Source of the DNA: Apostichopus japonicus
Lineage: Eukaryota; Echinodermata; Holothuroidea; Aspidochirotida; Stichopodidae
DNA length: 64,000 nt
Assembly (NCBI RefSeq): GCF_037975245.1
Contig: NC_092580.1
Coordinates: forward strand, 25,154,501-25,218,500
Direction: 5' to 3'
The stretch's first letter is position 1, and every line of letters starts with the position of its first letter. The position numbers were made by a program, and so were the translations under genes. The notes under the pieces are model-generated. The model was not told the origin of the DNA. It saw only the letters and a list, made by a program, of their open reading frames with translations, and did not search any database. Below, piece after piece: positions 4,303-63,479 of this stretch.

Positions 4303-4968
4303 GTCAACATTGGTTTTGAATATTCCATTTTAATTATGATTTATTAATTTGAAACAAAGGGAGAATATTTTAATCTGTTTGATTCTTATTCCATTTCTGT
4401 TACTGAAGCTGGAGTTTCATCTGTAAGAAATTATGAACAACTAATTCTTCAACCTCTTTCACACCCGTGTAGTGATACTAGTGCATAGCATGAACATAAA
4501 CTGACCATTCTTATAATAGGCACTGTCAACATTGGTTTTGAATATTCCATTTTAAATATGATTTATTAATTTGAAACAAAGGGAGAATACTTTAATCTGT
4601 TTGATTCTTATTCCATTTCTGTTACTGAAGCTGGAGTTTCATCTGTAAGAAATTATGAACAACTAAATCTTCAACCTCTTTCACACCCGTGTGGTGATAC
4701 TAGTGCATAACATGAACATAAACTGACCATTCTTATAATAGGCACTGTCAACACTGGTTTTGAATATTCCATTTTAATTATGATTTATTAATTTGAAACA
4801 AAGGGAGAATACTTTAATCTGTTTGATTCTTACTCCATTTCTGTTACTGAAGCTGGAGTTTCATCTGTAAGAAATTATGAACAACTAAATCTTCAACCTC
4901 TTTCACACCCGTGTAGTGATACTAGTGCATAACATGAACATAAACTGACTATTCTTATAATAGGCACT
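4303..4968. repeat. 222-bp tandem triplication
   Basis: Three adjacent copies begin at 4303, 4525 and 4747 with GTCAACATTGGTTTTGAATA (third copy GTCAACACTGG) and end with CTTATAATAGGCACTGT. The period is exactly 222 bp and differences are only scattered substitutions, so the duplication is young. It lies between the convergent PRPF18 and RAD18 genes. Confidence 0.95.
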
Positions 4969-23281: not shown

Positions 23282-26200
23282 TTATGCGTCATTTGTAAAG
23301 GTAAGACGTTTGCTTGAATATTTGTAAGAGGATACGTCATTAGACATTACAACAACATACTTCCCAGGAGAACTTTTTTGAACTTTGCTGTCAAACTTAA
23401 AATATTTCATCCACATTCGGAGGATTCTAGCCTTACAAATGAATACCAGAAAAATTAAGAATCCTTGTAGAGAGGTAAGGACGATGAAAATGTACCACAG
23501 AAATCCTAGCTTCGTAAAAGCAGCGATGAAACCCACGATCCATGAAAGTCCTAAAATGATGAAAATCTGTAAGTGGAAAGCATAAAACATTAACTTAAAA
23601 CTTATAAACAGAGAGATGCAACTCCATGTTCTCAGAAAGATATACACTAAAAGAGTGAAGAATGCAATTTTGTTTGCGACATGCATTTAGATAGGGAGAC
23701 CTGGTATATTTTGAAAGCTCCAGGACTGAGTTACAATCGGCAACTTGAAGTAGGTATTGCTGTGTTTGAATCATAAGACAGAGAATATTACTAAAAGTCA
23801 ATCTGCTGAGAAGTAAAATATAGCTATGAAAGACAAACTGTAAGTTTAAAGTTATTTCTTTGTTTTGCAACGTACGTATTATATGAAAAAGGTACAACAA
23901 AGTAAGATTAACAGGTACATTCCTATGAATATAGGGCTACTCCCCCACCCTTTTCTTCCATATAACCTCGGAATGAGCAACCTTTTATATAATTAAATAA
24001 TATATGTTGACTATAGATAGTTGAAAAACTCGTCTGGAAATTGTAAAAGTATAATGTTGTTATTTATGAAAGTGTTAAATATTTGTCCTCGGGTGTATTA
24101 ACTCATTCTAAATGTATGGAGTACGTTCCGTTTGAATAATATATGTTGACTATAGATAGTTGAAAAACTCGTTTGGAAACTGTAAAAGTATAATGCTGTT
24201 ACTTATGAACGGTGTTAAATATTTGTCCTCGGGTGTATTAACTCATTCTATATGTACGGAGTACGTTCCGTTTGGATATTATTGGTGATGATATATCATA
24301 AGTTTGTGCTAAAATGTTACATTATGTATTAACTTTTGCATTTTAAGCGTGGTCATGATGAAATGGTCAAAACAATTCTCATGTTTTCTTTATCGTTTGT
24401 CAAATATCAAATTGGGTCAATACATGCATTAACGTAAACTAAACCATTTATTACCTGTACTCGTCGATAACTTGAAATACCCAGTGGCACGGTAAAGAGC
24501 TTTCAGTATAATTTCTAATATGAAGTAGTTTTTGTCCCATGGAGATTAATCCCTCTTGATTCACAGATAATCATGTCTATTTCATTGTGCACCTTTTACG
24601 CACGGTAAATAAAATTGTGAAGAAACATGTTTATCTATTTGGTGTCTCTTTTAAATGAAACAATTTCCCCCTTAACGATTGATAATACGATAAACTAGCT
24701 ATGAATTAGCTGTTTGTTGCAATGAACTAAAAGTTTTGAATGTGTAGCTATATAATTAGCTATATGAATTAATAATGATTCATATATAAGAACAGAAAGA
24801 AGCATAAACTTAGGTAAGTGAAGTTTTTTGAAAAATGAACTTTACCTTTACATGAATAATATATTCTTGGAACTTTCGTTTATTCTGGTTACTCCTGAGT
24901 GCCTTACGTTCTCTCTGTTGAATGCAAATAGATCTCGTAACAAATATGAAAAATATCATATTTAAAAGAAGACATATTCCCACCGGTGCAGCAAAGCCAT
25001 AAATATTTACAGAAGGTCCGCTAATCCAGCAAACCAATTCATTTCCATATCCAAATGTTATAAGATCTAAACTTTTTAATATCAAGAGCGCCAGGCAAAA
25101 TATTGCTGGTAGCAGTAGACATGGTAGTATATGCCAAATTACTAAACGGCATGAAGGCTTTTTAGACTCGTTTTCGAAATTTCCGTTTTGGAAAGTTCGA
25201 GTTAATTTGTAACCGAGAACTGATGTAGTCGTAAAAGTCGCTAACCATAGATAGTGTCCTAGTCCTGCCAATATGGCGCAGATAACAGGCGATTTGGTTG
25301 GTACTCGTATAATAAGTAAAGAAATCTGTGCTGACATCAAGGTGATAAAGAGCAACATTGTTAGAATATTTCCGGCTTGTTGCCTCAGAGTAGGAAATAC
25401 CACGTACGTTATCAAAGAGAACATCAAAGCGAACACAGAAATGGAGAGACCCGCAGTACTTATAATCGCCTGCGCCATAGAATATTGGAAAAACGTTACT
25501 ATATGATATCTTTTGCCTGTTTTGTCAAAAATGTTACAAATAAGTATTTGCCCTGATTCAGCATAGCGATATTGATCTTGTGTTAGGATAATCTTATCGT
25601 CCATGATGTACAAAAGTGTTTTTGAATCGTTGGGGAGAGGTCGAAACAAAGATTGGTTGAGAGTTATCATGGGACAATTTAGGCCAGCGGACGTGTCTGA
25701 TGGAGGAATACAATTCTGGATGAAAAGGTTTCGTTCAAAATCATCATAATCATCGTTATTTTTTTGAAAAGTTACTGTCACTTTGTAAACTTTATGTAAG
25801 ATTGAAGGCAGCTCATCGATCGATCTTATCCCATCCGAACTGGTGTGATTGGAGTCAAATTTAGAATGGTTACAAGGTTCTGCCTCGGTATATTCACAAC
25901 TTAATTCAGTTATGATTCTATGGAAGGCCTTGCAATCTTCCATCAAATGTCCTTTGCATGGTATGAAATTGACAAAAGGTATTTTACCAACATTGAAAAG
26001 ATCAACTTTAAACGATGATCGAATTTGAAATATCCCATCCAAGTTATTCTGTGTACATAGGTGCTGCCTATCTCTGATGCTTTCATTGTGAATAACGTCA
26101 TAAGTTTCGAACAAATTAATCAAAGTATTGCAAGTATTCAAAATCGAATTTCCGGTGAAATTGATGGTCACGTTCATAGCTATTTTGCCACATAGAGGCA

Positions 26201-28534
26201 AATCTTTACGTAATTGCTGAACTTTCACGCAGGATTTGCTGAATAGCTTGAAACCATCCCGACAATTCAAACTAATGCATCTTGATTTGAATGGGTCAAA
26301 AACCTGCCCCTCTTTGCAGGTAATTTGTTGGTCCACAAGAGAAGGTTTTAAGTTTAACGTATACGTCATTGACGTCAGGCCGCCTATGAAGTCATCATAG
26401 ACTGCTTGCGCATCACATATCGATGTCAAATTAATCAAATTCATATCCTCTTCCGATAAGTTACATTCGACGCAGTACTTGTTTTTGAACCAAGAATTGT
26501 TATGCAATATCGGTGCATATATTTCGTGGCAGCTTTTCTCTATGCTTGAATGTTTGTAATCACTCCTACAGGTATCTATTTGAATATATCGCGCGTCTTC
26601 TTTTGTGCAAGGAACTTCAAAGAATTGTTGATGCTCGAATAAATTTGGCGGTTGTATAACCTTCACCTCGACACACTGGTCAGTGTGATTTTGAATTATC
26701 TCATGTAAAGTTAAATTTCCGGATTCGAAAGTCACTTGTGCATAGCATTCCATTTGAATTTCCCACAGAATGATGTTTTCAATCTCAACAGCATGGCAGA
26801 CAGCGCAAAAGATATTTCTAAATAATATTCCTTCATTGGAAGAAGCAGGGATATTAGTTAATTCTATATCATTCACTGTCAAATTCAAATAATTCTCTGG
26901 TGCCGTATGTCTACTGCACAAATCATGCCCTTTCCATGACGTGGGGCATTTACTGACCATCCAGTACTTCTGCCATGGCGCGAAACATTGAAAATACTGA
27001 CTGTAACGAGTAATCTGGTTCCGATAACGTAATCTGTCTTTTTGTGTAGAGTTGTCACACTTGGTTGCATATTCTTCTGCATTGTAGCAGCAATCTCCAA
27101 AGAGATGACACGCAAAATGACAAGAACAGCTCTTTGAGGCTTTCTTCACCGGGGTACATTGTGAAGGACAACTGTAGTCATCTGAGCAGTGCACACCTGA
27201 CAGATCTGCCGAGGAAGGTAATACATATACTATCAACATTAATAACGCAATCAAATATATGTGAAAAGTTAGATGATGGTCAGTTATAGTCTAATGTCAT
27301 GAACGTATATTGCCAATCTTAAGAACTTTCGTTTTCATTGTCAATTTTAATAATCTTCACACAAATGATATTTCTGTCGAATTATATCTCCATTTATTTC
27401 GTGTGATAAGAGTAAGTCTTTTGTGTAATAAATTATGGATGTCATGAGCTCATATGCCACCAAAGGAGAATAGGGAAGAATTTATGATAAAACGCGATTT
27501 CGTTTAATTGGTTATAAATTTGGCTATTTTTCTTGCTTTTGCGTTTTGATGATTAGTTTTCGGAAAGCCCAAAAAAACAAACAAACAAACAAACAAACAA
27601 ACAGGAAAAGCCATGAGAGTACATAAGATAATTAAACGAACGAGAGAAATATAAATATATGAACATGTAATACTGACATTCTCCAGTGCCCCATATCATT
27701 CTAACTTTTTAAACTGAACTGTCACATAAGGAGATATATAAAATTCCATCCATTTCATCATGTAACTTATTATTCGGCTCCATAGTCCTTTCTTGTATTG
27801 GAACACAAAAATTGGATGGGCACTGTATACAAGTATACCGCAATATGATATGTTTATATTATATTCTGCATAATTGTATCTTGTTTACGATTTCGAACGC
27901 GATGAAGCATAAAAGGGGCCGACTATTTTTTAGAGATAAGAGATAAAAGCTTAAATTTACGAAACCATATACAGCTTGTTTTAGGACTTTTGGGTGAAGT
28001 CAATAGTTACGAGAACCTACATTCTGTACATAGAACTGTCTGTATACCTTCTGTTCCCTTTCCCTCATCTAGTAGGTACACATGTCTTCCCCATTTTAAT
28101 TCTAACTATACGGAGCAAAGAAAAAAAAAACCGATTTTATTGCAGTAGGCCTAAACCGGAGGGAATGATAATGGGTAAAAGTATCGAATAAGTTGAGTTA
28201 ATCACAATCGAATGTGTCGCAGGCCTATTTGAAGGAGTCTTAAAGTGAGGGAAAACATTTTCATGATGATGATGAAAATTCAAGTGTGCAATCGCCCCTA
28301 CCCTACCCTCCCCCACCCCCACCCCCACCCCCGCGCAAACATTTGTACAGTTTATTGCTCTCAGCTACGCTAACGGTGACGAATTATTAGTAAATTATAC
28401 TTACTGAGTCGTTTGGTTACATTTCCGTCGATCGTGCTGTTGTCTTTAGACAGTGATTCACCGTCAGCTTCAGTAGCATGCCTTGCAACCAACAAGGAGA
28501 AAAAAGATAGTAACAGATACGGACCATTCTTCAT
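23282..28534 (-). CDS. SMB-domain, methuselah-like family B2 (adhesion-type) G-protein-coupled receptor
   Basis: Three exons: 28534-28405, 27205-24846, 23566-23282; phases 1 and 0; 924 codons plus TAA. Exon 1 encodes a signal peptide (MKNGPYLLLSFFSLLVARHA). Exon 2 opens at once with a cysteine-rich somatomedin-B-like domain (residues about 49-95, with DYSCPSQC, SCSCHFAC, DCC), then a large glycosylatable ectodomain, then TM1-TM5. Exon 3 carries TM6 (IFIILGLSWIVGFIAAF), TM7 and a 45-residue tail. Family B2 marks are HYLWLATF in TM3, CWIS in the second extracellular loop and LGLSW in TM6. No GPS autoproteolysis motif is visible, which favours a methuselah-like rather than cleaved adhesion receptor. 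A continuous frame could start at ATG 27239 with a short hydrophobic leader, but the exon 1 donor and the acceptor at 27206 match in phase and give a better leader. Ligand unknown. Confidence 0.85.
23996..24274. repeat. 139-bp tandem duplication in the receptor's last intron
   Basis: Two copies beginning AATAATATATGTTGACTATA at 23996 and 24135, each ending GAGTACGTTCCGTTTG, differ by a handful of bases. The duplication lies between the TM1-5 exon and the TM6-7 exon. Confidence 0.92.
27570..27603. repeat. (AAAC)n microsatellite
   Basis: Run of AAACAAAC units in the first intron of the receptor gene. Confidence 0.9.
28295..28333. repeat. C-rich simple repeat (CCCCACC)n
   Basis: Low-complexity CCCTACCCTCCCCCACCCCC tract in the receptor's first intron, just downstream of the signal-peptide exon. 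Confidence 0.85.
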
Positions 28535-32566: not shown

Positions 32567-33169
32567 CTATACGCCCCCGAGAGACTTGTAACGTTTGGTC
32601 TTGGTGACGTCACATTTTGAGCCGGTGGTATTCCAATATGAATATTCAACTATTTTCTGTAGCCAATGAAAAGTTTCCAATATGTAAACAGACAGTTCGA
32701 GTTCAAGTTTTTGTTTCTGTTCTGCCGAAGAAGGGCCGGCCAGATGAAAAGCGTTCAGTCCTTTATCACATAGGTATGTAACCTGATCTTTCATCAGTGA
32801 TACAAGAGGTGAAATTATTATAATAATGGACCTCAGAGTAGTAACTTTACTACTACAACTAGTACTACAACTGGCCGAATTATTCCCACTTGCACTGCTG
32901 TTGCTAGTATTACTATTATTATTACTGTTAGCAGCTCTCGTGTTACCACTACTAACGTTATTTTTCACATCGTAAATGAAATCTAATGCGATCGGCGCAG
33001 CTTGAAAAATTAGTGATTTGCCGTACCCTGTTGGTAATCCGACGAAAACGTCCCTTCTCTTTAAGAAACCAATCAACGCATCCCTTTGCTCGTCGTGAAC
33101 GTTTTCTTTTGGTATTCCCAACTTCGAAGAGGCAAATTGTATGGAGTTTAAGATGAGTGCCTCGTCCAT
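32567..33169 (-). CDS. RecQ-like DNA helicase, isolated N-terminal fragment
   Basis: Starts at ATG 33169. The frame shows the RecQ/DEAD helicase opening: HDEQRDALIGFLKRRDVFVG, Walker A LPTGYGKSLIFQAAP, and motif Ia IIISPLVSLMKDQV. This is followed by LCDKGLNAFHLAG and then, from about residue 155, by sequence with no helicase likeness up to a stop. A low-complexity Asn/Ser-rich insert of about 40 residues lies between motifs I and Ia, matching an imperfect trinucleotide tract in the DNA. Motif II (DEAH) and all later helicase motifs are absent, and no such exon is seen downstream on this strand to 28.6 kb. It is therefore the first exon of a broken gene or a captured fragment. Possible donors occur near 32692-32698 but lead nowhere visible. 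RecQ proteins are ATP-driven 3'-5' DNA helicases; activity here is unlikely. Confidence 0.65.
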   Translation of the reverse strand: MDEALILNSIQFASSKLGIPKENVHDEQRDALIGFLKRRDVFVGLPTGYGKSLIFQAAPIALDFIYDVKNNVSSGNTRAANSNNNSNTSNSSASGNNSASCSTSCSSKVTTLRSIIIIISPLVSLMKDQVTYLCDKGLNAFHLAGPSSAEQKQKLELELSVYILETFHWLQKIVEYSYWNTTGSKCDVTKTKRYKSLGGV

Positions 33170-33710
33170 TGCATTGGATTAGACATAATTATTAGTTTAC
33201 AACACTTGGTCTGTGTACGTTTGTATAGGCCTATGTACATTTATGTCCAGTACTCCGAGATCGTGCGTCGCGACGCGGTGGGGTGGACGTTCACAGCAAG
33301 ATGTGAATATTTATCTTAATTAATGAATATGCAGCAACTGTCATACAATACCGAAGCTGATTGGTTTCACCGAAATTTGAGGGACGAAAACAATAAATAA
33401 GTTTAAAATGATGACGTCAACAGAACCAAAAGAGACAAGTCTCTCACGACAGGCAGCTCGATCGAACAGTACCGCTTCAGTAACAGTACGTTACGTCAAC
33501 TTACGTGCGTGTGTATGTAGAAAGCACACGAACCATTTGAAACAAGTAGGTGTGAGCTGAGGGCGTGTTGCAAGGAACAGTAGAAGTAGGCTGATTATAG
33601 CGGTACAATGTTATGGAGTCACTGAGAGAAGGATCGGAACAGGCATTAGATGAGAGGTGGAAGAGAGAATCACGTGAGAGACTTGGGGCAAGTCTAGTAA
33701 GCACGCCGCT

Positions 33711-34299: not shown

Positions 34300-37200
34300 G
34301 TGGAAAGAGGTTTATCTATGGCCCATGGGTCATATGAACTCTAATAACTATGTAGAAGGGTACCATAATGCATCTTGCCCGGTCCAAATAGTTTTTGACC
34401 AACTAAAATGACCAGTACTTCATCAGCTCTTAAATTAATGTAAAAAAATTACTTTAGGCCCTAATCAAGACTAGCACGCCTTGGACCACCTTACCAATGG
34501 GTCATATTAATTCTTAACACATTGTAGAAGGATACCATAATGCGTCTTGCCCGGTCCAAAGAGTGCTTGACCAATTTAAATGACCACTAAATCAACATTT
34601 TTTTTAAATAAATGTAACGGGAACTGAAATAAAAACATTTGGGCCCTAATCAAATCCAGCACGCCTTGGACCGCCCAACCAATGGGTCATGGGAAGTCTG
34701 AGGACCTTGTAGAAGGGTAACATAATGCGTCTTGCCCGGTCCAGAGAGTGCTTGACCAATTTAAATGACCATTAAATCATTACTTCTTCAATGAATGTAA
34801 CGGGACCACGAAAAAGCTTTGGGCCCTAATCCATGCAGCACGCCTTGGACCACCTAACCAATGGGTAACATTAACTCTAAGGACATTGTAGAAGAGTACC
34901 ATAATGCGTCTTGCCCGGTCCAAAGAGTGTTTGACCAATTGAAATGACCATTAAATCATTACTTCTTTAATGAGTGAAACGGGACCACGAAAAAGCTTTG
35001 GGCACTAATCCAAGCAGCACGCCTTGGACCACCTAACCAATGGGTAACATGTACTCTAAGGACATTGTAGAAGAGTACCATAATGCGTCTTGCCCGGTCC
35101 AAAGCGTGCTTGACCAATTTAAATGACCACTAAATCATTACTTCTTTAATGAGTGTAATTGGACCATGAAAAAGCTTTGGGCCCTAATCCATGCAGCACG
35201 CTTTGGACCACCAAACCGATGGTTAACATGAACTCTAAGGACATTGTAGAAGAGTACCATAATGCGTCTTGCCCGGTCCAAAGCGTGCTTGACCAATTAA
35301 ACTGACCATGAAATCATTACTTCATCATCGAGTGTAACGGGACCACGAAAAAGCTTTGGGCCCTAATCCATGCAGCACGCTTTGGACCACCAAACCGATG
35401 GTTAACATGAACTCTAAGGACATTGTAGAAGAGTACCATAATGCGTCTTGCCCGGTCCAAAGCGTGCTTGACCAAATAAACTGACCATGAAATCATTACT
35501 TCATCATCGAGTGTAACGGGACCACGAAAAAGCTTTGGGCCCTAATCCATGCAGCACGCTTTGGACCACCAAACCGATGGTTAACATGAACTCTAAGGAC
35601 ATTGTAGAAGAGTACCATAATGCGTCTTGCCCGGTCCAAAGCGTGCTTGACCAATTAAACTGACCATGAAATCATTACTTCATCATCGAGTGTAACGGGA
35701 CCACGAAAAAGCTTTGGGCCCTAATCCATGCAGCACGCTTTGGACCACCAAACCGATTGTTAACATGAACTCTAAGGACATTGTAGAAGAGTACCATAAT
35801 GCGTCTTGCCCGGTCCAAAGCGTGCTTGACCAATTAAACTGACCATGAAATCATTACTTCATCATCGAGTGTAACGGGACCACAAAAAAGCTTTGGGCCC
35901 TAATCCATGCAGCACGCTTTGGACCACCAAACCGATGGTTAACATGAACTCTAAGGACATTGTAGAAGAGTACCATAATGCGTCTTGCCCGGTCCAAAGC
36001 GTGCTTGACCAATTAAACTGACCATGAAATCATTACTTCATCATCGAGTGTAACCGGACCACGAAAAAGCTTTGGGCCCTAATCCATGCAGCACGCTTTG
36101 GACCACCAAACCGATGGTTAACATGAACTCTAAGGACATTGTAGAAGAGTACCATAATGCGTCTTGCCCGGTCCAAAGCGTGCTTGACCAAATAAACTGA
36201 CCATGAAATCATTACTTCATCATCGAGTGTAACGGGACCACGAAAAAGCTTTGGGCCCTAATCCATGCAGCACGCTTTGGACCACCAAACCGATGGTTAA
36301 CATGAACTCTAAGGACATTGTAGAAGAGTACCATAATGCGTCTTGCCCGGTCCAAAGCGTGCTTGACCAATTAAACTGACCATGAAATCATTACTTCATC
36401 ATCGAGTGTAACCGGACCACGAAAAAGCTTTGGGCCCTAATCCATGCAGCACGCTTTGGACCACCAAACCGATTGTTAACATGAACTCTAAGGACATTGT
36501 AGAAGAGTACCATAATGCGTCTTGCCCGGTCCAAAGCGTGCTTGAGCAATTAAACTGACCATGAAATCATTACTTCATCATCGAGTGTAACCGGACCACG
36601 AAAAAGCTTTGGGCCCTAATCCATGCAGCACGCTTTGGACCACCAAACCGATGGTTAACATGAACTCTAAGGACATTGTAGAAGAGTACCATAATGCGTC
36701 TTGCCCGGTCCAAAGCGTGCTTGACCAATTAAACTGACCATTAAATCATTACTTCATCATCGAGTGTAACGGGACCACGAAAAAGCTTTGGGCCCTAATC
36801 CATGCAGCACGCTTTGGACCACCAAACCGATGGTTAACATGAACTCTAAGGACATTGTAGAAGAGTACCATAATGCGTCTTGCCCGGTCCAAAGCGTGCT
36901 TGACCAATTTAAATGACCACTAAATCATTACTTCTTTAATGAGTGTAATTGGACCATGAAAAAGCTTTGGGCCCTAATCCATGCAGCACGCTTTGGACCA
37001 CCAAACCGATGGTTAACATGAACTCTAAGGACATTGTAGAAGAGTACCATAATGCGTCTTGCCCGGTCCAAAGCGTGCTTGACCAATTAAACTGACCATG
37101 AAATCATTACTTCATCATCGAGTGTAACCGGACCACGAAAAAGCTTTGGGCCCTAATCCATGCAGCACGCTTTGGACCACCAAACCGATGGTTAACATGA

Positions 37201-37840
37201 ACTCTAAGGACATTGTAGAAGAGTACCATAATGCGTCTTGCCCGGTCCAAAGCGTGCTTGAGCAATTAAACTGACCATGAAATCATTACTTCATCATCGA
37301 GTGTAACGGGACCACGAAAAAGCTTTGGGCCCTAATCCATGCAGCACGCTTTGGACCACCAAACCGATTGTTAACATGAACTCTAAGGACATTGTAGAAG
37401 AGTACCATAATGCGTCTTGCCCGGTCCAAAGCGTGCTTGACCAATTAAACTGACCATTAAATCATTACTTCATCATCGAGTGTAACCGGACCACGAAAAA
37501 GCTTTGGGCCCTAATCCATGCAGCACGCTTTGGACCACCAAACCGATTGTTAACATGAACTCTAAGGACATTGTAGAAGGGTACCATAATGCGTCTTGCC
37601 CGGTCCAAAGCGTGCTTGACCAATTTAAATGACCACTAAATCATTGCTTCTTTATTGAGTGAAAAGGGACCACGAAAAAGCTTTGGGCCCTAATCCAGAC
37701 CAGAACGCCTTGGACCACCTAACCGATGGGTCATATGATTTTTTAAGACAGTGTAGAAGAGTACCATAATACGTCTTGCCAGGTCCAAAGTGTGCTTGAC
37801 CAATTTAAATGACCACTACATCATCACTTCTTAAATGAGT
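34300..37840 (+). repeat. Left-arm array of ~179-bp units (about 20 copies)
   Basis: Counting the core GTCTTGCCCGGTCC gives about 20 copies; from 34908 to 37593 spacing is a strict 179 bp (16 copies) and the units are nearly identical, while the outermost and innermost copies are diverged. Every unit has an internal inverted pair GGTCCAAAGCGTGCT (e.g. 35275-35289) and AGCACGCTTTGGACC (35374-35388). Confidence 0.95.
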
Positions 37841-41242: not shown

Positions 41243-43200
41243 TCACCACACTGGTACAGACGTAGAGTTGAAATTCAAAAAAGAAGATATTGATGAATCT
41301 ACTGGATAATGATTGTGCATTAGTCGTTTGTATTGGTCAAATACTCTTTGGACCGGGTAAGACGCATTATGGAACTCTTCAACAATGTCCTTAGAATTCA
41401 TAAGACCAATTGGTTGAGTGGTCCGAGGCGTGCTGGTCTTCACAAGGGCCTAAACATATTTGCAGGTCCATTAACATTCATTAACGAAGTAATTATTTAG
41501 TGGTCATTTTAATTGGTCAAGCACGCTTTGGACCGGGCAAGACGCATTATGGTACCCTTCTAAACTGTCCTTAGAGTTCATGTTAACCATCGGTTTGGTG
41601 GTCCAAAGCGTGCTGCATGGATTAGGGCCCAAAGCTTTTTTTGTGGTCCCGTTACAATCAATAAAGAAGTAATGATTTAATGGTCAGTTTAATTGCTCAA
41701 GCACGCTTTGGACCGGGCAAGACGCATTATGGTACCCTTCTACAATGTCCCTAGAGTTCATGTTAACCATCGGTTTGGTGGTCCAATGCGTGCTGCATGG
41801 ATTGGGGCCCAAAGCTTTTTATTGGTCCCGTTACACTCAATAAAGAAGTAATTATTTAGTGGTCATTTTAATTGGTCAAGCACGCTTTGGACCGGGCAAG
41901 ACGCATTATGGTACCCTTCTACAATGTCCTTAGAGTTCATGTTAACCATCGGTTTGGTGGTCCAAGGCGTGCTGCATGGATTAGGGCCCAAAGCTTTTTT
42001 GTGGTCCCGTTACACTCAATAAAGAAGTTATTATTTAATGGTCATTTTAATTGGTCAAGCACGCTTTGGACCGGGCAAGACGCATTATGGTACCCTTCTA
42101 CAATGTCCTTAGAGTTCATGTTAACCATCGGTTTGGTGGTCCAAGGCGTGCTGCATGGATTAGGGCCCAAAGCTTTTTTTGTGGTCCCGTTACAATCAAT
42201 AAAGAAGTGATGATTTAATGGTCATTTAAATTGGTCAAGCACGCTTTGGACCGGGCAAGACGCATTATGGTACTATTCTACAATGTCTTTAGAGTACATG
42301 TTACCGATTGGTTAGGTGGTCCAAGGCGTGTTGCATGGATGAGGGCCCAAAGCTTTTTCGTGGTCCCGTTACACTCGATGATGTAGTAATGATTTAGTGG
42401 TCATTTAAATTGGTCAAGCACGCTTTGGACCGGGCAAGACGCATTATGGTACCCTTTTACAATGTCCCTAGAGTTCATGTTAACCATCGGTTTGGTGGTC
42501 CAATGCGTGCTGCATGGATTGGGGCCCAAAGCTTTTTATTGGTCCCGTTACACTCAATAAAGGAGTAATTATTTAGTGGTCATTTTAATTGGTCAAGCAC
42601 GCTTTGGACCGGGCAAGACGCATTATGGTACCCTTCTACAATGTCCTTAGAGTTCATGTTAACCATCGGTTTGGTGATCCAAGGCGTGCTGCATGGATTA
42701 GGGCCCAAAGCTTTTTCGTGGTCCCTTTTCACTCATTAAAAAAGTAATGATTTAATGGTCATTTAAATTGGTCAAGCACGCTTTGGACCGGGCAAGACGC
42801 ATTATGGTACCCTTCTACAATGACTTAAGAGTTCATGTTAACCATTGGTTGGGTGGTCCAAGGCGTGCTGGTTTTGATTAGGGCCCAAATGTTTTTTATT
42901 TCAGTTCCTGTAACATTTATTTAAAAAATTGTTGATTTAGTGGTCATTTTAATTGGTCAAGCACGCTTTGGACCGGTCAAGACGCATTAAGGTATCCTTC
43001 TACAATGTGTTAAGAATTCCTATGACCCATTGGTTAGGTGGTCCAAGGCGTGCTAGTCTTGATAAGGGCCTATAGTGATTTTTTTCAGGTCCCGTTACAT
43101 TAATTTAGAAACTGATGAAGTAGTGGTCATTTTAGTTGGTCAAGAACTATTCGGACCGGAAAAGATGCATTATGGTATCCTTCTAAATATTCATTAGAGT
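41243..43200 (-). repeat. Right-arm array of ~179-bp units (11 copies)
   Basis: Eleven copies of the same unit as the left arm in reverse orientation, counted by ACCGGGCAAGACGCATTATG. Copies are more diverged from one another than the central left-arm units. Open frames such as 41872-42210 are repeats of the unit and not genes. Confidence 0.95.
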
Positions 43201-53533: not shown

Positions 53534-56500
53534 TTAAGTGTTCTTTCCAGCACAGATTTTAAGGGCATCCGCCAATTCGTCTTTTGTAATCTGCAAAATG
53601 GATGTAGAACAAATGTAAAAACTATCCAAAAATAGTTCTGTTATTGTGCAAACGTAAACCAAAGTTTAGCGTTACGGGCATGGAAGTGAGATTTTGCAGT
53701 GGAATATTTTCACATAGTACTTATCTGGATGCAGAATTTTTAAAGTACATGTGAAGTTACCTTTCCCTTTTTCTTGATACTGGTAAGGCTTTTCTTGTAT
53801 GTGGACTCACTCATCTGAAAGAAATATAACTGGAATGAAACTTCTATATGAACGTTTCTAATTAATATAGAAATGCAGTGTAATCAATGTATGATTCTAT
53901 ATGCAATAGTCCAGTATTTCGTTTGAAACACGAATCAACTGGCTCTTAATATCAGTGAGCATACTGCAATAAAGATGCCTTGAAAATTTTATGGAGTATA
54001 AAGTGACATTTTTTTCCCCTTCAGCCTACAACCGTGAAAGGGGGCAACTATTGCAGAATTACTTAAAAACATTGCTGTGGGTTATTGCCTCATATACTCC
54101 CTTACCTCACATGAGAAAGTCACAGATAAATGTACGGATCTTCATAGCAAGTCAAAGGGAGACCTTAATGATACCCCTATGGCTCTGTGTTTATATGGTC
54201 TCAAAATACCAATACTGAGGCTTTATTTCATTACATCCACAAGAACGTCTCTACGACTAGGTTTTTTCCGAGGGCTACAGTTAATATGGAACCCATCACA
54301 TGAGAGTAGTTAATAGATTCGTTCATAACTTATCGACAGGATTTTTTATGAATGGTTCGTTTTATTGGAGTGTAAAGGAAACATTTACTTTAGTTCGGAC
54401 AATTAATTAAACAATGAGAGAGTAGCAGTTAAATTGATTTGCAAACAAGTAAATCTAAACAAAATACCAGTGATGCATGAAAGCACTCTGCCAGCAGATC
54501 CATCGTATTCACTTTATCTAGCTGTAGAGAGAACAGAAATGCATTCGATTAGTTTTTTGGCAAATCTTACAAATAGGGTTGGGGCGGGGGGGGGGTGGGG
54601 GTTGCTCTAAGAAGAAGCCGGAAAGTTGTATACATAGCAAATTCTAATCCCTTCTGAAAGTAATGCATTTGTGATCTCAGAAAGGAACGCGGATAAAAGA
54701 ATGAAGTCGAAACACTTGCCCATTAATTCTCTATACAGCCAGTCTGACATACAATTTGAACCGTATAGGTTGTAATTTTCTTAGAAGTAATTATACGTTT
54801 TTGCAGTGGTAAAATTCAGCAGTTCAGACATTTGAAATCCTTCCGTTTTTCTAATATTTTATTTGTGCACTAGTAAAAGCCTCCAAAGTCAGTAATAAAA
54901 AAAGTAGAATATGTTGAACTCTTACCCATCTTTGGTTTATCAAACACTCGGAAATATCTTCTAAATCTGTTTCGTTGATCTGTTGTTATGGTGGTAATAA
55001 AATATTCAGTTTCGTTGGCACAACTTTTGTTAGTTAAAGTCATTACTTGAATTTTTCGCATCACATGCAGTTGGGTAAATTGTAAAGGGATATCTGTTTA
55101 CAGCAAGAATACTTTATCATACTTTGTGATCACTCATTTTAACGTCAATTTACGTTCACACTCTGATAGAATTTTATGTCAATATCAATTTTATACGAGC
55201 AACCAAATATACCCAGCGTTAAATTAGCTGAAACCGAGCGAACTACCAAATAGGATTGGTTACTGCAGAGGAATGAAGTTTGATGGAGACAACAATTATA
55301 TATATAAATAAGTTCAAAGAATTGCTAAATTACACACCTGTCCTTTCTGCTTGGAAGCTGTCAAGATTGCAATGCACTCATCTGTTTTCATCTTAGAAAA
55401 TAAGACAATTGTCGAAAAAGTCCAATGTATTGGTTGTATTTGTAATATGCATGTAAAATATGTGCATTGTAACGAGTTTATTGCCAACTCTTTCGATATG
55501 ACACTCACTTGAGTACGTAAAGAAATTTTAGTGCAAGTGGAGATGGGAAAGTATACAAGAAGGGTTATTCACCTCAAACATGCTTTAATTTTATTCGTCA
55601 AAATCGCTAGTGTGACGATTGGCACCTTCTATAAAGAAAGTTCGATCAAATGTAACAGTCAAATTGAATGTAATTGTGTACGTTCAAGTGGCATGTTTTG
55701 TTTCCATGGTAGTTGCGAACGAAAGAAGTTTTCGTAATAAAAGGAATGTAACTTACCCATTTGTTCTGTACATTTAGAAGGAGAACTCGCAGAAACTGTT
55801 TTCGTAAATCCTGTAAAATGTTACAATGTGTATATTGTTCGACAATTAAATTATTTTACATATTCATCGTACGTAAGCAAATTCTTTATAATGAACGAAG
55901 TTGAAGCAGAACTGAAAGTACCTAATGATTTTCGTCGCAAACATTGCAAAAGTTCACGGGGGCTTACTTGTGACATCCAAATAATAAACTTCATATTTAT
56001 ATGACCAATTGAAAACACTTATTGTGTTGTAAGATGAACTATGAACATATGAAAGCCGTGGGCGTTGGAAGATATGATCAATATGCAATTGTTAATGAGA
56101 GGATTGGATTTCTTTTAAATTTCCGAATGTGCAAGAGTAGCATCGAAAAATACAGATATTTACCGGTTTTTTCATCTTATTGATGGCTTGGTCTCTGAAA
56201 ATCACTTGGTTGTCCTGTACAATTAGAGATATATTACTTCGATTATGTAAGACATTTTGAGTATAAGTTGAGTGAGTCACTAAACAATGAGAATAAAGTA
56301 AGATAGGAAGCTTCTGTAATATATTGATTGAACTAAATTTGGCAATTCCTGATAGAGTAGAGTCATGATAATTTATATCTGTATGTGTAACATAGTTTGA
56401 TCCCCGTTCAAGTTCTTCACAAATAATTTGCTCGGAACAAGTTTACAATTCCACGTATTTAATATATTATTGTATAAATGGCAAAGCAAGATCGAAGAAC

Positions 56501-59500
56501 TTACTGCTGCCTTTGTAAGTATTTTCTCAAAGAGGCTACGTAGTGTGTTTTTTTGTTGCACCGTCACCTTTTAAAAAAAGAAAGAAAATAAAACGTATTC
56601 AAATTTTTCCTGCTTACTGTAACAATGTATTATGAATGTATCCGATAGACGTTTCGATCATAAAAGGATCACATGCAGACTACAAACTAAAACAGCTAAA
56701 TGTATGGACCATGCAAGTTAATTAGAACATTTAACAATGTATAAAGTGGAAGTGGGTCAATGGGCAGTGACATCAAATAACAGGAAATAGTCCTCCCGAT
56801 ATTAACACGAAGAGACTAATTGCTATATGACTGCTTTATGCACGTTGTGGTCACTAGCTATAGCTATTATATGATAGAGACGTTCACTGAAGTAATATCA
56901 ATAACGTTCGAAACTACTTACGTCTCCTATAATCCCCTGAATTGCTTGTAGAAAGTACGGATGGTGAATCTATGGAAAGGGTTAGAATGTGATCCAAGAT
57001 TTTGCATACCTCTGGAAAATTGTTATAAAATGTACTTTATATCGTTTGTCTGGAACACCAACTCATGCGAGTTCATACAGTGAAGTATAATCAGTTTGAA
57101 GAACCTTCAAACATAACCTAATATAATATTGTAAAATACCAATTAAATAAATTCAAGAACGAATTAAAATCATGGATTAAAAGTAATCACTTGATCTCGA
57201 TTACTTAATCATTTTACAATGTTGAATGAATAAATGCAGCGATTAAATAATAATTGGTAAATTGCTAACATATGTTGCTGTTTTATATGAAAATTGATAT
57301 TTACTTCAATCGCTACATTGAAGTAATCAACACAACTGGTCAAAGTTACATTTAGATATCATAGAGGTAAACTAACATCAAATCTTACAGAGTGCACTAT
57401 ATTATCAATATAACAAATCTACTGTCCATAAATTGATCCAAACCGACTGCTATCAATATGGGCTGTCCATTATTTTAATACCTAAAGCAGTTTAATTTGC
57501 ATTTTAATGCCGGTGAAGAGTTAGGCCTTTGCTCTCATTTTCAGAGAGGAGTAAGAGTCCAGCATATTTGAGTTGAAGTACAAGTTCCAGTCAACACAAT
57601 GTGGACTTTACTACAATTATGACAACACTTTAATTTTTACTTTGATGTGTTCACTTTCTCTAATACCTTTTCTTTGCCAACTCCTAGGAAACCAATTTGA
57701 CGAAACACTTCATCAACGTTCATCTGTAAAATAATTAATACAAGAACGTGTTATATAAATGAACATATACGTCGTGGATTATAAAAGAAGATCACGAAAG
57801 ATACCTGACAATAACAATGTCAATGCAATAATCGGACAAAACAATGACAAACCATACACGACATTGAAAATAAACAAAATGAAAACTTACAAGATTTTTC
57901 AATATAAACTGGATAACTGTATCAGCTATTTCTACCCCTGGATACTGAAAGGAGAAAAATATGATACACTGTTCCTGTATTTCTGATATCAAAATGCTGC
58001 ATTTACTGTTGCATTAAATAAAGCAAAATCATTAAATGCAAGATTAGCAAATTATTGATATAGTAGAAAGACATTTCGTTAAAATAAACAATTATTTTGT
58101 ACAGGTACTTGGCAAGCCGCCGATTTGAAGAATTAGTTTCATTTGCCAGTCTGCATTATTGAAGAAGTCATTCTACCAAATTTTTGATACGGTTACGGAG
58201 TGCATAGTGACGCTTTACAGCAAATTTGGTGCACAGTTTTCCGCCTGATGTTTAGTAGACACAGTGCCTTGAATGAATAAGAGTCAAAATCTTGAAATCG
58301 TATTACCGAATGTTAGAAAAATTAAATAGCTTACTTTCGACTTGCTAACTTCTTTCAGTGTTGCCAAAATGCCCTTGGCAGTGATCTGTTCACATGGATA
58401 AAAATGAAGTTAGTTATCAGATTAAACAGTTATATTTCATTATGGAAAGGAAAACCCAGTAAACATAATAACAACGATGGTAGTTGGCAGTACAGAGTGG
58501 ATTGTCGCAAAGATCCGAAATTGACATTTATTGTGAATGTCATATTTCCTTAGTATCGAAATTAAGTTGACCCTATTTTACTTTGATCGGAACTTCACTA
58601 CTTAAAAGTATTCGCTGTCCGCATCAGAAAACATACACATTTAAAATGGAGCTGAATCAATTGTTGTCATTATACAGTCATAAGAATGTATTGGATCCGA
58701 TTTATGAAATCAGAACTCAGTAGCTACTTGCTATATGAAAAGTTGTACCAAAGGGATAACACCAACCTTCTTCTCATCGAGGAGGAACTTTGTACCTGCA
58801 ACGAACTCTTCTACAGTTATCTGCGTAATATAATTCAAAGTAGGACGTTTTAATAACTGTTTTAGTGATGAGAAAAGGAAATATATATTGAAAGTAAGAC
58901 TATTTGAAAGCATCGGAATATAATACATTTGATTATCATTGTAATACGAAATATTTATTGACGCTTTCATGTTTGTTTTAATTTGGTTATAACAACATAG
59001 CCTATCGATGTTTATTAGATTATTACTAGTATGTGTTACTACAAGTAACAATGACAACAACAGAATTTAATGTTAATTTTAGCTGAAGTAATAACGTTTG
59101 AACAATCTTCATAAAGCAAAGCAAAACATGGTTATCATTTTATGATTAACAAATTCTGCCTTCAAATGTGACCAATTCAGACGAGACCAAAGTTATACAC
59201 AGAGGCAAACATTGCTTACTTCATGTCAATATTTGTTCACCAAATAAAATAAAGAGAGTGCCCAATATATTTTAAATCACTTATTTGATACTAACTTGAT
59301 GCAGTGAAAATATTTCTGCCAGAAGTGAGAGAGATGTTTCGGGGGGCAGCTGCATAAAAACAAAGAACAAAAGATGGTTTTATGTGGCAAAGAAAAGTTA
59401 AGTTTGAGACCACGATGGGTTCCCTGAAATGCCCAAGCTTGAACACCTTTATAGGAAATGTTGCGCTGCATTTAATATAAAGAACCTGATGTAAAAATAA

Positions 59501-62500
59501 ATAACTTCAAGAAGCCATTTTTTAACATGTTGGATTAAATATATGTGCAATAAATTAATAAATTTATGTGCAATGCCCTGAAAGTTTACAATAGTTCGAA
59601 AGTTGAGTTCTCACTTATTTAAAAGTAAAAATCATACTTGAATGAAATATAATTGATCTGAGATGAATGTCTCTTACTTTCTTCACAGCGAGTCTGATCG
59701 CCTTTGTTCTGTCAAAAATAGTAAACTGTAGGCCAAAATCAAATCAACAGTAATATATTTGTGTTAATGAAGGAGAAATCATAGGAGAAGCGAGAATAAC
59801 GGAAAGCTCATAATTGGTTTGGATTTCAAATAAGATACAAATGTGTAGATTTCAACGCCAATTTACTTCAATTCAAAAAAGAGAATTCAAAACTGAAATT
59901 TATCCTTTACTGACCAAATCACTCTCTTCACATTCAGCGAGAAACTTCGTAACGGCAATCAATTGCTATAAATGCAGAAATGAAAACACGGTTAGATGTG
60001 ATTTTAATTTTAATGGGGAGATTTAATAATTTTTAATTGTGTAGCACTGTCCACTATATGACAGACTTAATCAACTTGAAGAACAAGTTTTTGACAAGCG
60101 ATGTCAACTATTGCCAAATCCTGGTGAAATTTAAGTTACTCTTTTATGCAAACCTTTTCTGCAATGTCTTCTTTGTCGATATATTCTTCCATATAATTTG
60201 AGGGCGATTCCTATGAAAGTTATAAAGGACAGGCAAAATATGAATTAGTTTTTCATCAAGTAAATAGTTTCAGTTTCACATATATTATGTTAAACATAAA
60301 ATGTTGCAATTGTTTTCTGCCTCAATGAGATTAATCGATCAACTTGCAATTTAAACATCAGTATCAGTGCATAAGATAACATAAATTGGACAGCAACGGT
60401 TCACAGACCATATGTTAACAAAGAGACGGGCTGTAATCTACGTAAATGAAGTAGGTACTTTAATGATTAAAATAACATCAACACCATCCTAAGTAGGCAA
60501 CTTTTATGTGAACTATTTGTATGATCAGTCAGTCGGACGTAAGTATAAAGTATAACTTACCTTGTACTTTTTGTGGAATTTCTTTAAAACCTCCTGAAAC
60601 TTGTCGTTTGTACCCTGTTAGAAAAGAAAGGCCGACACAGTGAAGATTAGCTCCATCTACGTATCTACTATTAATTAAATGTACTTTGGAATAGCGATAT
60701 GTCAAATATTGAACATTCGCCAGACCCATGTGACCTACGCTATATATGTTCATGAAGTACTTGATTGAATATTTTGTCTTCAAACTGTTCCTAGAACATA
60801 GTTATGCCAATAAGTGATAATGTAGTGCTGACTTATGGCAATTAACTTACCTTGTCTGAAGTTATCTCGGTACAAAGTGCTTTGAATGCCTCTCTAAAGT
60901 CGATCTATTATAGAAGAGAATCGTTATAGTTGATAGGTGCAGAAGAAGGAAAACCAACAAACACACACATGAAATACGATGTCATGCAATGAAAATCATT
61001 GTTCTTATCATAAGATTCGTTGCCATAATATCCCGGGTTGTAATGAAAACATAACGATAAAACATACTAACCTTTTTCTTTTCTTCCTGTTGTTCAATTT
61101 GCTTTGAATATATTTCATTCGATATCTAAATAGACAAGGCAATACAATTGTTAAGCTTTCTTGCACTCTGTTCCATTCATTTTTGCAATTGCCAATATGT
61201 AAAAACACCAGTGTATGTAATTAGTCTAATTAGTTAATATCTAACACAGTAAATATTATTTGACAGTTTATATCAGATTAAGAACAGTACACAACTCACC
61301 AGGTTTGCATCCACACACTTCTTAAGTTCCGTGTTGTATTCAGTAATATCGAGCTAAAGGGAATCATAGAAATGAAACAATTCTCGATATATGCGAGTTA
61401 AGTCATCTTATTAGTGCTGATTAGTTCTTCATATTGAGGTACAACAAATTGAACGGCTCTATATAAATTTGGGGTGTGCACTGTTTACACATCAGATGAT
61501 AGCCGAACAATTGTCCCTGGATTAAGTTTGCAGAATAATACTGCATGAGTTTGGTCTATTGTAAAGTGATAGTAATAATTTTAGTTCTTTGTATCGCTTT
61601 GTAAACTTTATGACTCCCTTGAACGTAAGTGTTAACAATTGATTCCAGGAAGAGTAACTCTGAAATGAATCAAACGCCAGTGTCGTAGAACGTGTTTCAA
61701 CCTATAAATATCTCGGATATTCGATAAGCGACTTGCTTGGTATTTGAGTATGGAGGAGAAAAGACAATTTCCGATTACATAACTTCCGTAAACTAAAAAC
61801 TCAAATATATGTTATATTGATAGACATATCTTCACTATGTTTTGTAAGTCTGTGGTTGATTCCATTTTGCTGTCTGTTGGGGTACACACGTGGGCAGTGC
61901 ATGGTATGAAAAGTATTGAGACTGATTTATTCAACAAGTTCATCAAGGAATTGATTTTTTTCTTTTCTACGAGTCAATACATATATGGACAACTTTTTTT
62001 AAATCATGATCAAGTAAAAATCCCTCGCAGTGGCCGAATGATACTACAGCGGTGTAGTAAGAATATTAATGATTCCGTTTAATTATTCGATTTTCGGTAC
62101 TAAATTTCTTTTCATTTTTTTTTTCAATGAGTTGCTTAAACTTCTTTCCTTTTGTATCATAGCCAGGTTAATTGTGTTTACTCATACCTCTATTCTTGTT
62201 GCGCGCATGTACAAAACGTTAAAAATTACGCTGAAACATTATGAGTTATTATGAACCTGCAAGAAAGTATGATTACGTCACAGCGCAGCAATAATACCCG
62301 CCCGTATCACCTTTAAAAAGAAACTATAGCAACACCATACCTTTGCCTTTTGTAACAAGTCCTCCAAAAAGGTACAAAGTGCTTCTTCAGTCATCTACAA
62401 GAATGTTTATAAACAAACAGTGGTTACGTATGAAAGATGACATACGTATATCAAAAATAAACTTTAACTACATGAAAACATTCCTCATTTTGAATAAAAT

Positions 62501-63479
62501 CATACTCAGCGTGAAGTATTTAATAAGCCCAATCAGGTGGATTTAACGAGTACCTGTTTAGGCTATTATACAAATACTGACGGAAGTATACCGTAAATTA
62601 CCAGGCCTATTAAGTACACCATCAAGTCGATAACCGGGCTTTCACAAAAACGGGATGGGTTCAGGGATGCTTGATTTACCATTATCACTGTTTTACAGGG
62701 GAAATTATCACCAATATAACCGAATAACCCAAAATAAAAGCTGCTTTTCTGAGTTTTTTAGGTTAAACTGATGACCATCTTATAGTTTACTTGAAGCATA
62801 CAGATGAAAATAATATTGTACTACGCATATCATATATCGTATACGATGGACGATTGTGTAAAACTAAGCATGCTTTAAGCGACCAATGTAAGTAACGCTC
62901 TCTAGAAATCGGCCCTGCTCTGCGTTTTAATTGCCAGATTATGTGAAACAATTACGGACATGCCATTTCTGCTAATACAATTTCACACATGTGACACGAA
63001 AGTTGATAGTTTTTGACATTTTAATGATGTTATCGTATAAAATTGCACTATATCAAGAGTTTATAACATAATTGTTTTCTTTCATGTACCCTTGCACTGT
63101 CTCTTGTTCCAATCATTACTAAATATAAACGCAGTTAGTCGATCCAATGTTTGGTACTGCTGTAACATGGCTTCTTCCAACGAAGCTGGTCATGTGACCA
63201 CTTGATCAATACTTTACTTTAAAAACATATAACATTCAATAAATTAAAAACACATAACGGCTTCGGATAATGGTTAAAAAAATGTAACATGATCAAGATC
63301 ACGTTGCCAACGTTTCCACAAACTGTAATATTAAAGTTCCGAGGTATTTTGCCGAATTTTAAAATGATTCCATTTCCGATTTCATGCTATCTTAAATAAT
63401 CTTTAATAAAGTGCCCGCTTCTCACCAAATTTTCTTTTCGACAGCCGTGAAGTTTCCCAATAGAATCTTGCAAACCCAA
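53534..63479 (-). CDS. Symmetric micro-exon gene encoding repeated ~18-residue modules (at least 21 exons, 5' end outside window)
   Basis: Exons 5'->3': 63479-63426, 62394-62341, 61353-61300, 61125-61072, 60904-60851, 60614-60561, 60210-60154, 59725-59678, 59349-59296, 58820-58767, 58385-58335, 57723-57667, 56969-56922, 56567-56505, 56214-56164, 55810-55757, 55391-55338, 54979-54926, 54521-54468, 53814-53761, 53590-53534 (TAA). Each is 48-63 bp (14 are exactly 54), has AG/GT borders and is phase 0; visible sum 377 codons. Modules share a loose pattern: first residue usually I/L/M/V, second often T/N/D, aromatic or Leu near 6, Ile/Leu near 10, a Lys-rich end. Examples: ITVEEFVAGTKFLLDEKK, IDFREAFKALCTEITSDK, ITKDELADALKICAGKNT. 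The I-T-x-x-E-F start recalls the end of an EF-hand loop and its exit helix, but no D-x-D-x-G calcium half-loop is present. It may be a degenerate EFCAB-type protein or a new family; function not assigned. Confidence 0.8.
61680..62060 (+). mobile_element. LINE reverse-transcriptase C-terminal remnant
   Basis: In three frames joined by a stop and shifts, the plus strand reads VVERVSTYKYLGYSISDLLG, then RLHNFRKLK, then FCKSVVDSILLSVGVHTWAV, in the order of the end of non-LTR reverse transcriptase domains (the FKYLG motif, then the Y-K-S-V-x-x-S-I-L region). It is decayed and lies antisense in the second visible intron of the micro-exon gene. Confidence 0.65.

Follow-up and report, generated by a model that had tools for sequence, protein, structure and literature searches.

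A 64,000-nucleotide stretch of the sea cucumber Apostichopus japonicus (RefSeq assembly GCF_037975245.1, contig NC_092580.1, positions 25,154,501 to 25,218,500; the stretch is referred to here as the window and the contig as C20) ends in a row of very short exons, most of them exactly 54 bases long, and the question raised by this locus is what kind of gene is built from such pieces. Our analysis confirmed the row, on the minus strand between 53,534 and 63,479, and showed that a far longer gene terminates there with its 3' end; the sequence context makes it probable that the array forms the cytoplasmic tail of a single-pass immunoglobulin (Ig)-superfamily receptor. Local coordinates are window coordinates, counted from C20:25,154,501, and continue through a further 198 kb examined on the upstream side.

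Micro-exons were sought as stop-free whole codons of 45–66 bp between an AG and a GT with a combined site score of at least 0. Between 53.4 and 63.6 kb this rule returned 23 minus-strand candidates, 14 of them exactly 54 bp, and no plus-strand candidates. In comparison, 200 first-order Markov simulations averaged 2.38 candidates, 0.29 of them of 54 bp, and none gave more than 7 candidates or more than 3 of 54 bp. The whole window held 46 minus-strand candidates, 23 of these at 53.5–63.5 kb, and 26 plus-strand candidates, none of which lay past 48 kb. One minus-strand candidate (62,311–62,361) was removed as a false overlap with a better one, and the terminal exon, which ends in TAA and hence has no donor, was entered by hand, giving a model of 23 minus-strand exons (fourteen of 54 bp, two of 57, three of 51, two of 48, one of 63, and a terminal exon of 57 bp with the stop codon). 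Phase 0 was required by the scan, so that the finding of phase 0 throughout is partly built in by construction and the independent checks are a second copy of the gene (copy 2) and a divergent, collinear copy. The exons are given below in coding order with their basis, where end-set alignment refers to the irregular exon sets at the two ends of the array.

63426–63479, minus, micro-exon of 54 bp, LGLQDSIGKLHGCRKENL (weakest in the window; 94% identical exon in copy 2)
62341–62394, minus, micro-exon of 54 bp, A-type putative helix (scan, copy 2, exon model)
61300–61353, minus, micro-exon of 54 bp, B-type putative helix (scan, copy 2, exon model)
61072–61125, minus, micro-exon of 54 bp, A-type putative helix (scan, copy 2, exon model)
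60851–60904, minus, micro-exon of 54 bp, start of the irregular C-terminal domain (scan, copy 2, end-set alignment)
60561–60614, minus, micro-exon of 54 bp (scan, copy 2, end-set alignment)
60154–60210, minus, micro-exon of 57 bp (scan, copy 2, end-set alignment)
59915–59965, minus, micro-exon of 51 bp (scan, copy 2, end-set alignment)
59678–59725, minus, micro-exon of 48 bp (scan, copy 2, end-set alignment)
59296–59349, minus, micro-exon of 54 bp (scan, copy 2, end-set alignment)
58767–58820, minus, micro-exon of 54 bp (scan, copy 2, end-set alignment)
58335–58385, minus, micro-exon of 51 bp (scan, copy 2, end-set alignment)
57891–57944, minus, micro-exon of 54 bp (scan, copy 2, end-set alignment)
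57667–57723, minus, micro-exon of 57 bp (scan, copy 2, end-set alignment)
56922–56969, minus, micro-exon of 48 bp (scan, copy 2, end-set alignment)
56505–56567, minus, micro-exon of 63 bp (scan, copy 2, end-set alignment)
56164–56214, minus, micro-exon of 51 bp (scan, copy 2, end-set alignment)
55757–55810, minus, micro-exon of 54 bp (scan, copy 2, end-set alignment)
55338–55391, minus, micro-exon of 54 bp (scan, copy 2, end-set alignment)
54926–54979, minus, micro-exon of 54 bp (scan, copy 2, end-set alignment)
54468–54521, minus, micro-exon of 54 bp (scan, copy 2)
53761–53814, minus, micro-exon of 54 bp (scan, copy 2, end-set alignment)
53534–53590, minus, terminal exon, 18 codons ITKDELADALKICAGKNT and TAA (stop kept in copy 2; end-set alignment)

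An earlier note on the window had counted fourteen exons of 54 bp and seven of 48–63 bp, which comes within two exons of this model, and had placed the series at 53.5–63.5 kb; these limits proved too narrow, as the series runs about 41 kb further upstream and the 23 exons are its last quarter. Followed to local 104,459 (C20:25,258,959), the array comprises 100 exons and 1,800 codons over 51 kb, where 77 exons are of 54 bp and the others of 45–72 bp. The exons were hand-picked from scored candidates and the ends of two (92,216 and 89,192) are less certain. Introns have a median length of 304 bp and 94 of the 99 are shorter than 1 kb; one of 9.7 kb (local 65,008–74,739), in comparison to about 0.4 kb in copy 2, perhaps reflects a transposable-element insertion. 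A looser scan setting, with overlapping alternatives included, gave 130 candidates on the gene strand and 8 on the opposite strand in copy 1, the copy that ends in the window, with corresponding values of 116 and 14 in copy 2, 36 and 3 in copy 3, and 12 and 0 in copy 4, in comparison to 28 and 21 on the two strands of window positions 1–50 kb.

The 64 regular 54-bp exons share I or L at position 1, S, T or D at position 2, F, Y or L at position 6, L at position 10 (44 of 64), C or L at position 13 (43 of 64) and L, V or F at position 14 (50 of 64). The moment of their averaged hydropathy profile is highest at 100 degrees and only 6 of their 1,152 residues are proline, and for these reasons each regular exon looks like one amphipathic helix with a putative N-cap at position 2. 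Adjacent exons tend to alternate, with some breaks, between an A type (..QL..L....K) and a B type (..EL..C....L). Exon similarity peaks at a lag of 13 (mean BLOSUM score 20.5, in comparison to 15.8 for the best lag in 200 shuffled orders), suggesting that blocks of 13 exons were probably copied as the middle part of the array expanded. Lags 2 and 4 (14.9 and 13.4) exceed lags 1, 3 and 5 (5.8, 8.3 and 8.3), albeit a test of even minus odd lags over lags 1–20 was negative (−1.41; 499 of 500 permutations as high or higher), for which odd insertions that shift the register offer an explanation. Both ends of the array are irregular, the C-terminal irregular set being the part in the window, and the N- and C-terminal sets are collinear over 18 pairs (score 142; maximum of 85 in 300 order shuffles).

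The alternation at short lags and the 13-exon super-repeat bear out the earlier proposal of what is apparently an old duplication series, whose modules are alike in pattern and not in sequence. The statement that no named family was recognised also held for the tail, as no Pfam or PDB family explains the array: nothing convincing emerged from either database with profiles built on 24 two-exon modules or on the end domains, with best PDB E-values of 0.2 (modules) and 0.049 (end domains). Two Pfam matches were set aside, TMP_3 (E 0.0037; 17.4 bits against a cut-off of 41) and DUF5891 (E 0.0027; weak and in one of four members). No match to Rfam was obtained at gathering scores in the window.

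Copy 2 lies in tandem at local 167.6–210.6 kb, 110 kb away, and is 80–95% identical in aligned blocks. An AG, a GT and an open frame stand at the ungapped homologous place for 98 of the 100 exons; the exon at 98,897 is shorter by exactly one codon in copy 2, and the terminal exon keeps its AG and stop. The ratio of non-synonymous (dN) to synonymous (dS) substitution over the 99 gap-free exon pairs was 0.53 (dN 0.039, dS 0.073; z 4.5), based on 74.5 synonymous differences in 1,069 sites and 161.5 nonsynonymous differences in 4,277, in comparison to 0.84 and 1.04 in the other two reading frames of the same pairs. Constraint on the tail is moderate, not strong, albeit the 21 exons of 53–62 kb are too alike to tell.

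The sequence immediately upstream of the array encodes, on the same strand, four Ig-like domains and a single transmembrane (TM) segment:

Local 110,159–110,476, minus, Ig exon, V-set (Pfam E 7.9e-6, 26.5 bits, cut-off 26)
Local 107,752–108,516, minus, Ig exon with two domains (Ig profile/Pfam reading)
Local 106,710–107,099, minus, Ig exon (Ig profile/Pfam reading)
Local 106,336–106,461, minus, TM exon, ..GLIAGLLVVFAIIAVVFIVIRTRKK (hydropathy 3.45; leaves in phase 1)
C20:25257601–25267600, about 4,276–4,467 within, minus, partial and apparently degenerate extra Ig4-like sequence, located between Ig3 and Ig4 in copy 1 (HMM E 2.7e-10)

The other Ig domains of copy 1 matched Ig_3 or C2-set_2 below the cut-offs (2.5e-5 to 6e-3; best values 2.5e-5 for Ig_3 and 8e-4 for C2-set_2), and in copy 4 C2-set_2 was matched over its cut-off (E 2.5e-8). 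The TM segment precedes the array in all four copies with a hydropathy of 3.24–3.65, and in copy 1 the two are separated by a Lys-rich and acidic juxtamembrane stretch that was apparently duplicated once within the gene. Between copies 1 and 2, a 6-bp indel in the TM exon and a 12-bp indel in the first juxtamembrane exon keep the frame. Ig1–3 of these copies are 40–47% identical with dS values of 1.1–3.0, near saturation at synonymous sites, in comparison to 87–89% identity (88–89% for Ig4 and the TM segment) and dS values of 0.06–0.12 for Ig4, the TM segment and the first juxtamembrane exon, and a dS of 0.07 for the tail. This outcome points to old heads on a young or homogenised chassis, and either gene conversion or duplication of the chassis beside a different head would do as its source.

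The same order recurs in more divergent copies. Copy 3 is found at C20:25,466,001 on the plus strand, inverted relative to copy 1, and within 10 kb there it has Ig1 (E 2e-29, with a profile built from copies 1 and 2), Ig2 (1e-24) and Ig3 (1.6e-4) in one open frame, and Ig4 (2e-10), followed by what by eye are a TM segment and an acidic juxtamembrane stretch, after which the micro-exons start. When the next 10 kb were included, 29 exons were selected by hand and 25 of these could be aligned with copy 1 in unchanged order, with 109 of 444 residues identical (25%), the same length in 17 of the 25 pairs and a collinearity score of 155, in comparison to maxima of 102 in 300 order shuffles and 37 in 300 letter shuffles; three of the 29 exons are repeats of a single five-fold exon, which enters two of the 25 pairs. 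This exon, of 54 bp and encoding VELEENLAEVKTTKDDCQ between AG and GT, is carried by each of five tandem 490-bp units (C20:25482518–25484508), with a poor acceptor context in all five; here a micro-exon array has seemingly been caught growing, and the exon number is possibly variable between animals. Copy 4 (C20:3,035,001) lies 22 Mb away with Ig1 (6e-37), Ig2 (1e-24), Ig3 (1e-13) and Ig4 (5e-17) ahead of a TM segment, after which micro-exon candidates stand at ten places on the gene strand, whereas the opposite strand of these 10 kb is free of them, so that it probably shares the order of Ig domains, TM segment and array.

A genome search with Ig1 of copy 1 gave at least 149 matches at E ≤ 1e-3 (150 of 370 candidates scored). 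At least 12 were close heads (E < 1e-22), all on C20 among the matches scored and 11 without a stop, forming one cluster of at least nine at 25.26–25.83 Mb (one with a stop) and another of at least three at 2.99–3.08 Mb. The receptor most likely belongs to a group of at least 11 such intact heads on one chromosome, of which four had their tails examined. Four 10-kb stretches were sampled and three of these (L029, L031 and L032) carried no array by eye; L032 gave 12 and 14 candidates on its two strands at the looser setting. A lone Ig1 remnant at C20:25282446–25282763 (local 127,946–128,263) is 93% identical to Ig1 of copy 1 and has an internal TGA.

After the close twelve, the next-best Ig1 matches lay on C16 (at least 72 of the at least 149, from E 1.1e-11). 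One gene there (C16:45780001–45785000, positions 229–4875) encodes a NACHT domain (Pfam E 3.7e-16, above the cut-off) downstream of Ig exons and a TM segment, and one of its Ig exons matches the Ig4 profile at E 1.7e-14. This gene, the one that was read, looks AjNLRC4-type, perhaps in many copies. In the 7.5 kb read no micro-exon cluster was seen after its NACHT domain, which is not decisive. Conversely, a phmmer search with the C16 NACHT open reading frame, made with no distant positive control, found only itself at E ≤ 1 across the 261.6 kb holding copies 1 and 2, 20 kb of copy 3 and 10 kb of copy 4. AjNLRC4 of A. japonicus is described in PMC8699970 as a membrane receptor with two predicted TM segments whose Ig domains bind microbes and which drives phagocytosis of Vibrio through actin. 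The gene described here resembles it in having putatively extracellular Ig domains and a TM segment ahead of a long, presumably intracellular part, and differs in that this part would be a micro-exon helical array, with no NACHT domain found in the C20 stretches. The kinship is drawn through the C16 gene, by its layout and not by AjNLRC4's own sequence, and suggests that one type of Ig/TM ectodomain carries two unrelated intracellular parts.

Two alternatives accept the array as coding and differ in what it belongs to or what it is for. The same map could arise from two genes duplicated as a pair, one for an Ig-TM receptor with a short tail and the other, downstream on the same strand, for a cytoplasmic protein of helical repeats, and both the 1.9 kb or so between the TM exon and the first Lys-rich exon and the weak donor of the bridging exon would fit such a pair. 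We consider this quite unlikely, as order and strand are the same in copies 1, 2 and 3, and likely in copy 4, though copy 3 is inverted and has so diverged a tail. Moreover, a bridging exon from phase 1 to phase 0 is readable in both copies 1 and 2, and a scan between the TM exon and the first Lys-rich exon of these copies for initial exons (ATG, 9–300 bp, whole codons, donor score of at least 2) found none. It is mainly because the divergent copies, copy 3 above all, carry the same order that Ig domains, TM segment and array are read as one gene. The other alternative, raised in the earlier note, is combinatorial splicing, in which exons are skipped, repeated or reordered; as the main point of the layout this would yield tails of many lengths and specificities. 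All modelled exons are symmetric and near-equal, so that the frame would allow this, and repetition does occur in the five tandem exons of copy 3; the order kept between divergent copies argues against free reordering. That kept order, the A/B alternation and the 13-exon periodicity suggest a fixed linear protein, and one exon per helix would account for the symmetry in the absence of alternative splicing, which leaves combinatorial splicing an unlikely main purpose.

The other two explanations concern the nature of the coding sequence itself. A giant EF-hand protein related to EFCAB3/EFCAB13, the lead offered earlier, is favoured by a resemblance of many exon starts, I-[ST]-x-x-E-[FL] preceded by G-K, to the latter half of an EF hand; scores of EF-hand models reached 10.1–16.5 bits (E down to 0.0061, the best stretch being the terminal exon), and the best PDB profile matches included KChIP1 (E 0.049, end domains) and SCaMC-1 (E 0.38, modules). 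An EF hand, however, has a period of about 36 residues in comparison to 18 for the exons, no EF loop pattern occurs in the 1,800 residues, exon position 14, the would-be loop position 3, is the predominantly L, V or F position noted above, no score reaches the Pfam cut-off (25 bits for the best match), and the array follows an Ig-TM part; judged by Pfam, PDB and pattern, this lead is already largely refuted and we give it hardly any credence. Decay of a duplicate array that has lost its translation would be compatible with a dN/dS that is just moderately low and uninformative at 53–62 kb, with the weak sites of some exons and with the stop in one Ig1 remnant of the cluster. It is nevertheless very unlikely, as 99 of the 100 exons pair with no gap, internal stop or frameshift and the remaining one is short of a single whole codon, while indels in the TM and juxtamembrane exons are also whole codons, the terminal stop codon is kept and the architecture is kept in divergent copies.

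Several observations weigh against an immune receptor with a micro-exon tail. The link between Ig part and tail consists of adjacency in three to four copies, and the candidate for the bridging exon (74 bp, local 105,462–105,535) has a good acceptor and a poorly scored donor. A candidate signal peptide was found in copy 2 and none was found for copy 1, and topology is read solely from sequence order and basic residues. For AjNLR-new, a related Ig/TM/NACHT protein, the Ig domains are placed inside and the NACHT domain outside by the authors of PMC13133943. Immune function is argued through the kinship of the Ig/TM part only. Within the tail, the 21 exons of 53–62 kb have 2 synonymous and 11 nonsynonymous differences (ratio 1.4), where the near-identity of the copies makes dN/dS uninformative and support comes from the collinearity of the end sets. 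A score of 97 is obtained for the N-terminal set even with windows taken from the regular middle, so that the likeness of the end domains is partly general. Tail collinearity of copy 4, calculated from nine of its ten places (8,039–8,110 was left out), was not significant against copy 1 (24; shuffle maximum 34) or copy 3 (37; shuffle maximum 51).

With the array taken as a receptor tail, the gene would span about 57 kb on the minus strand and encode four Ig-like domains, a TM segment with basic residues after it, a short Lys/Glu-rich juxtamembrane stretch and about 97 tail micro-exons of 15–24 codons, mostly 18, the regular ones contributing one amphipathic helix each. Spliced into one mRNA, these parts would yield a type I membrane protein whose Ig1–3 could bind a ligand outside, either a microbial surface or a self marker. 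Inside, helices of 18 residues may pair into 36-residue hairpins that stack into a rod or solenoid, which could recruit or space partners; by analogy of position with the NACHT domain of AjNLRC4, the rod may link the receptor to the cytoskeleton or to other partners and aid uptake. The stacking of helices into a rod and the link of this rod to cytoskeleton and uptake are the weakest of these steps. The likeliest role would be in innate immune recognition, the helical tail taking the position that NACHT has in AjNLRC4, as the Ig-TM part is akin to that of a gene with the AjNLRC4 layout. Provided that each exon encodes a single helix, frame and fold would both survive the duplication of an exon or exon pair, which by itself would favour symmetric exons of equal length; splicing diversity is possible but not needed to explain the symmetry. 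A more far-reaching proposal, tentative and on balance doubtful, is a diversified recognition system of echinoderms, where divergent Ig heads sit on a homogenised chassis whose ladder of one-helix exons is resized by unequal crossing over at the level of exons, and perhaps by splicing, so that specificity and signalling length are both tunable, the ladder being an undescribed helical-repeat family that replaces the NACHT domain of the sister receptors.

Should Ig part and tail indeed be joined, this would be a receptor family in which one exon corresponds to about one helix over some 1,800 cytoplasmic residues, and its ectodomain would have a relative in a gene that shares the layout of the Vibrio-phagocytosis receptor of a farmed sea cucumber. 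With exons this short, annotations may well lack the gene or show it in fragments; a mean exon length of 193.65 bp is given for what is presumably this assembly (PMC10344927). The 13-exon super-repeat, the collinear end domains and the fresh five-fold exon would together offer a natural series for the helix-by-helix growth of helical-repeat proteins.

Elsewhere in the window, the following features were observed:

24810–27290, minus, open frame of 826 residues encoding a 7-transmembrane domain of the secretin type (Pfam 7tm_2 E 7.9e-18) and, N-terminally, a Cys-rich part that looks somatomedin-B-like
32567–33178, minus, fragment of a DEAD-box helicase (E 3.2e-7) that by eye resembles RecQ
34452–37830 and 41332–43200, 179-bp units in tandem, 18.8 copies in the first array and 10.4 in the second, which by eye belong to one family and run in opposite directions
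2043–2547, 12 copies of a 42-bp tandem repeat, open in one minus frame

Among known systems, fibrillar collagen genes have 54-bp phase-0 exons, a feature shared by the array, and a collagen-type origin was dropped as the translation has no Gly-X-Y repeat (longest run 2 triplets). The likeness to the parasite secreted proteins named in the earlier note is confined to exon layout: like the schistosome micro-exon genes (MEGs), as described in PMC10526429, the locus has many very short symmetric exons between introns, here 100 of 45–72 bp. The MEG proteins of that account are secreted, unlike the tail described here, for which a cytoplasmic location is expected from the Ig ectodomain and TM segment that precede it, and which has about 1,800 residues and a helical pattern. 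In this comparison the exon symmetry was a search condition, and TM segment and array would belong to one gene. The tails of the Hydractinia Alr receptors are laid out differently. Their clustering as Ig-superfamily receptors with divergent distal Ig domains, as given in PMC11999971, is similar to that seen here. Among the titles and opening lines of abstracts that searches of open-access literature returned, no Ig receptor with a micro-exon tail was found. Dscam varies its extracellular exons by mutually exclusive splicing. Likeness to Dscam lies in an Ig receptor of immune or neural context encoded by a many-exon gene (PMC3364881 and PMC5465998), and the difference is that here the repeated exons lie in the tail.

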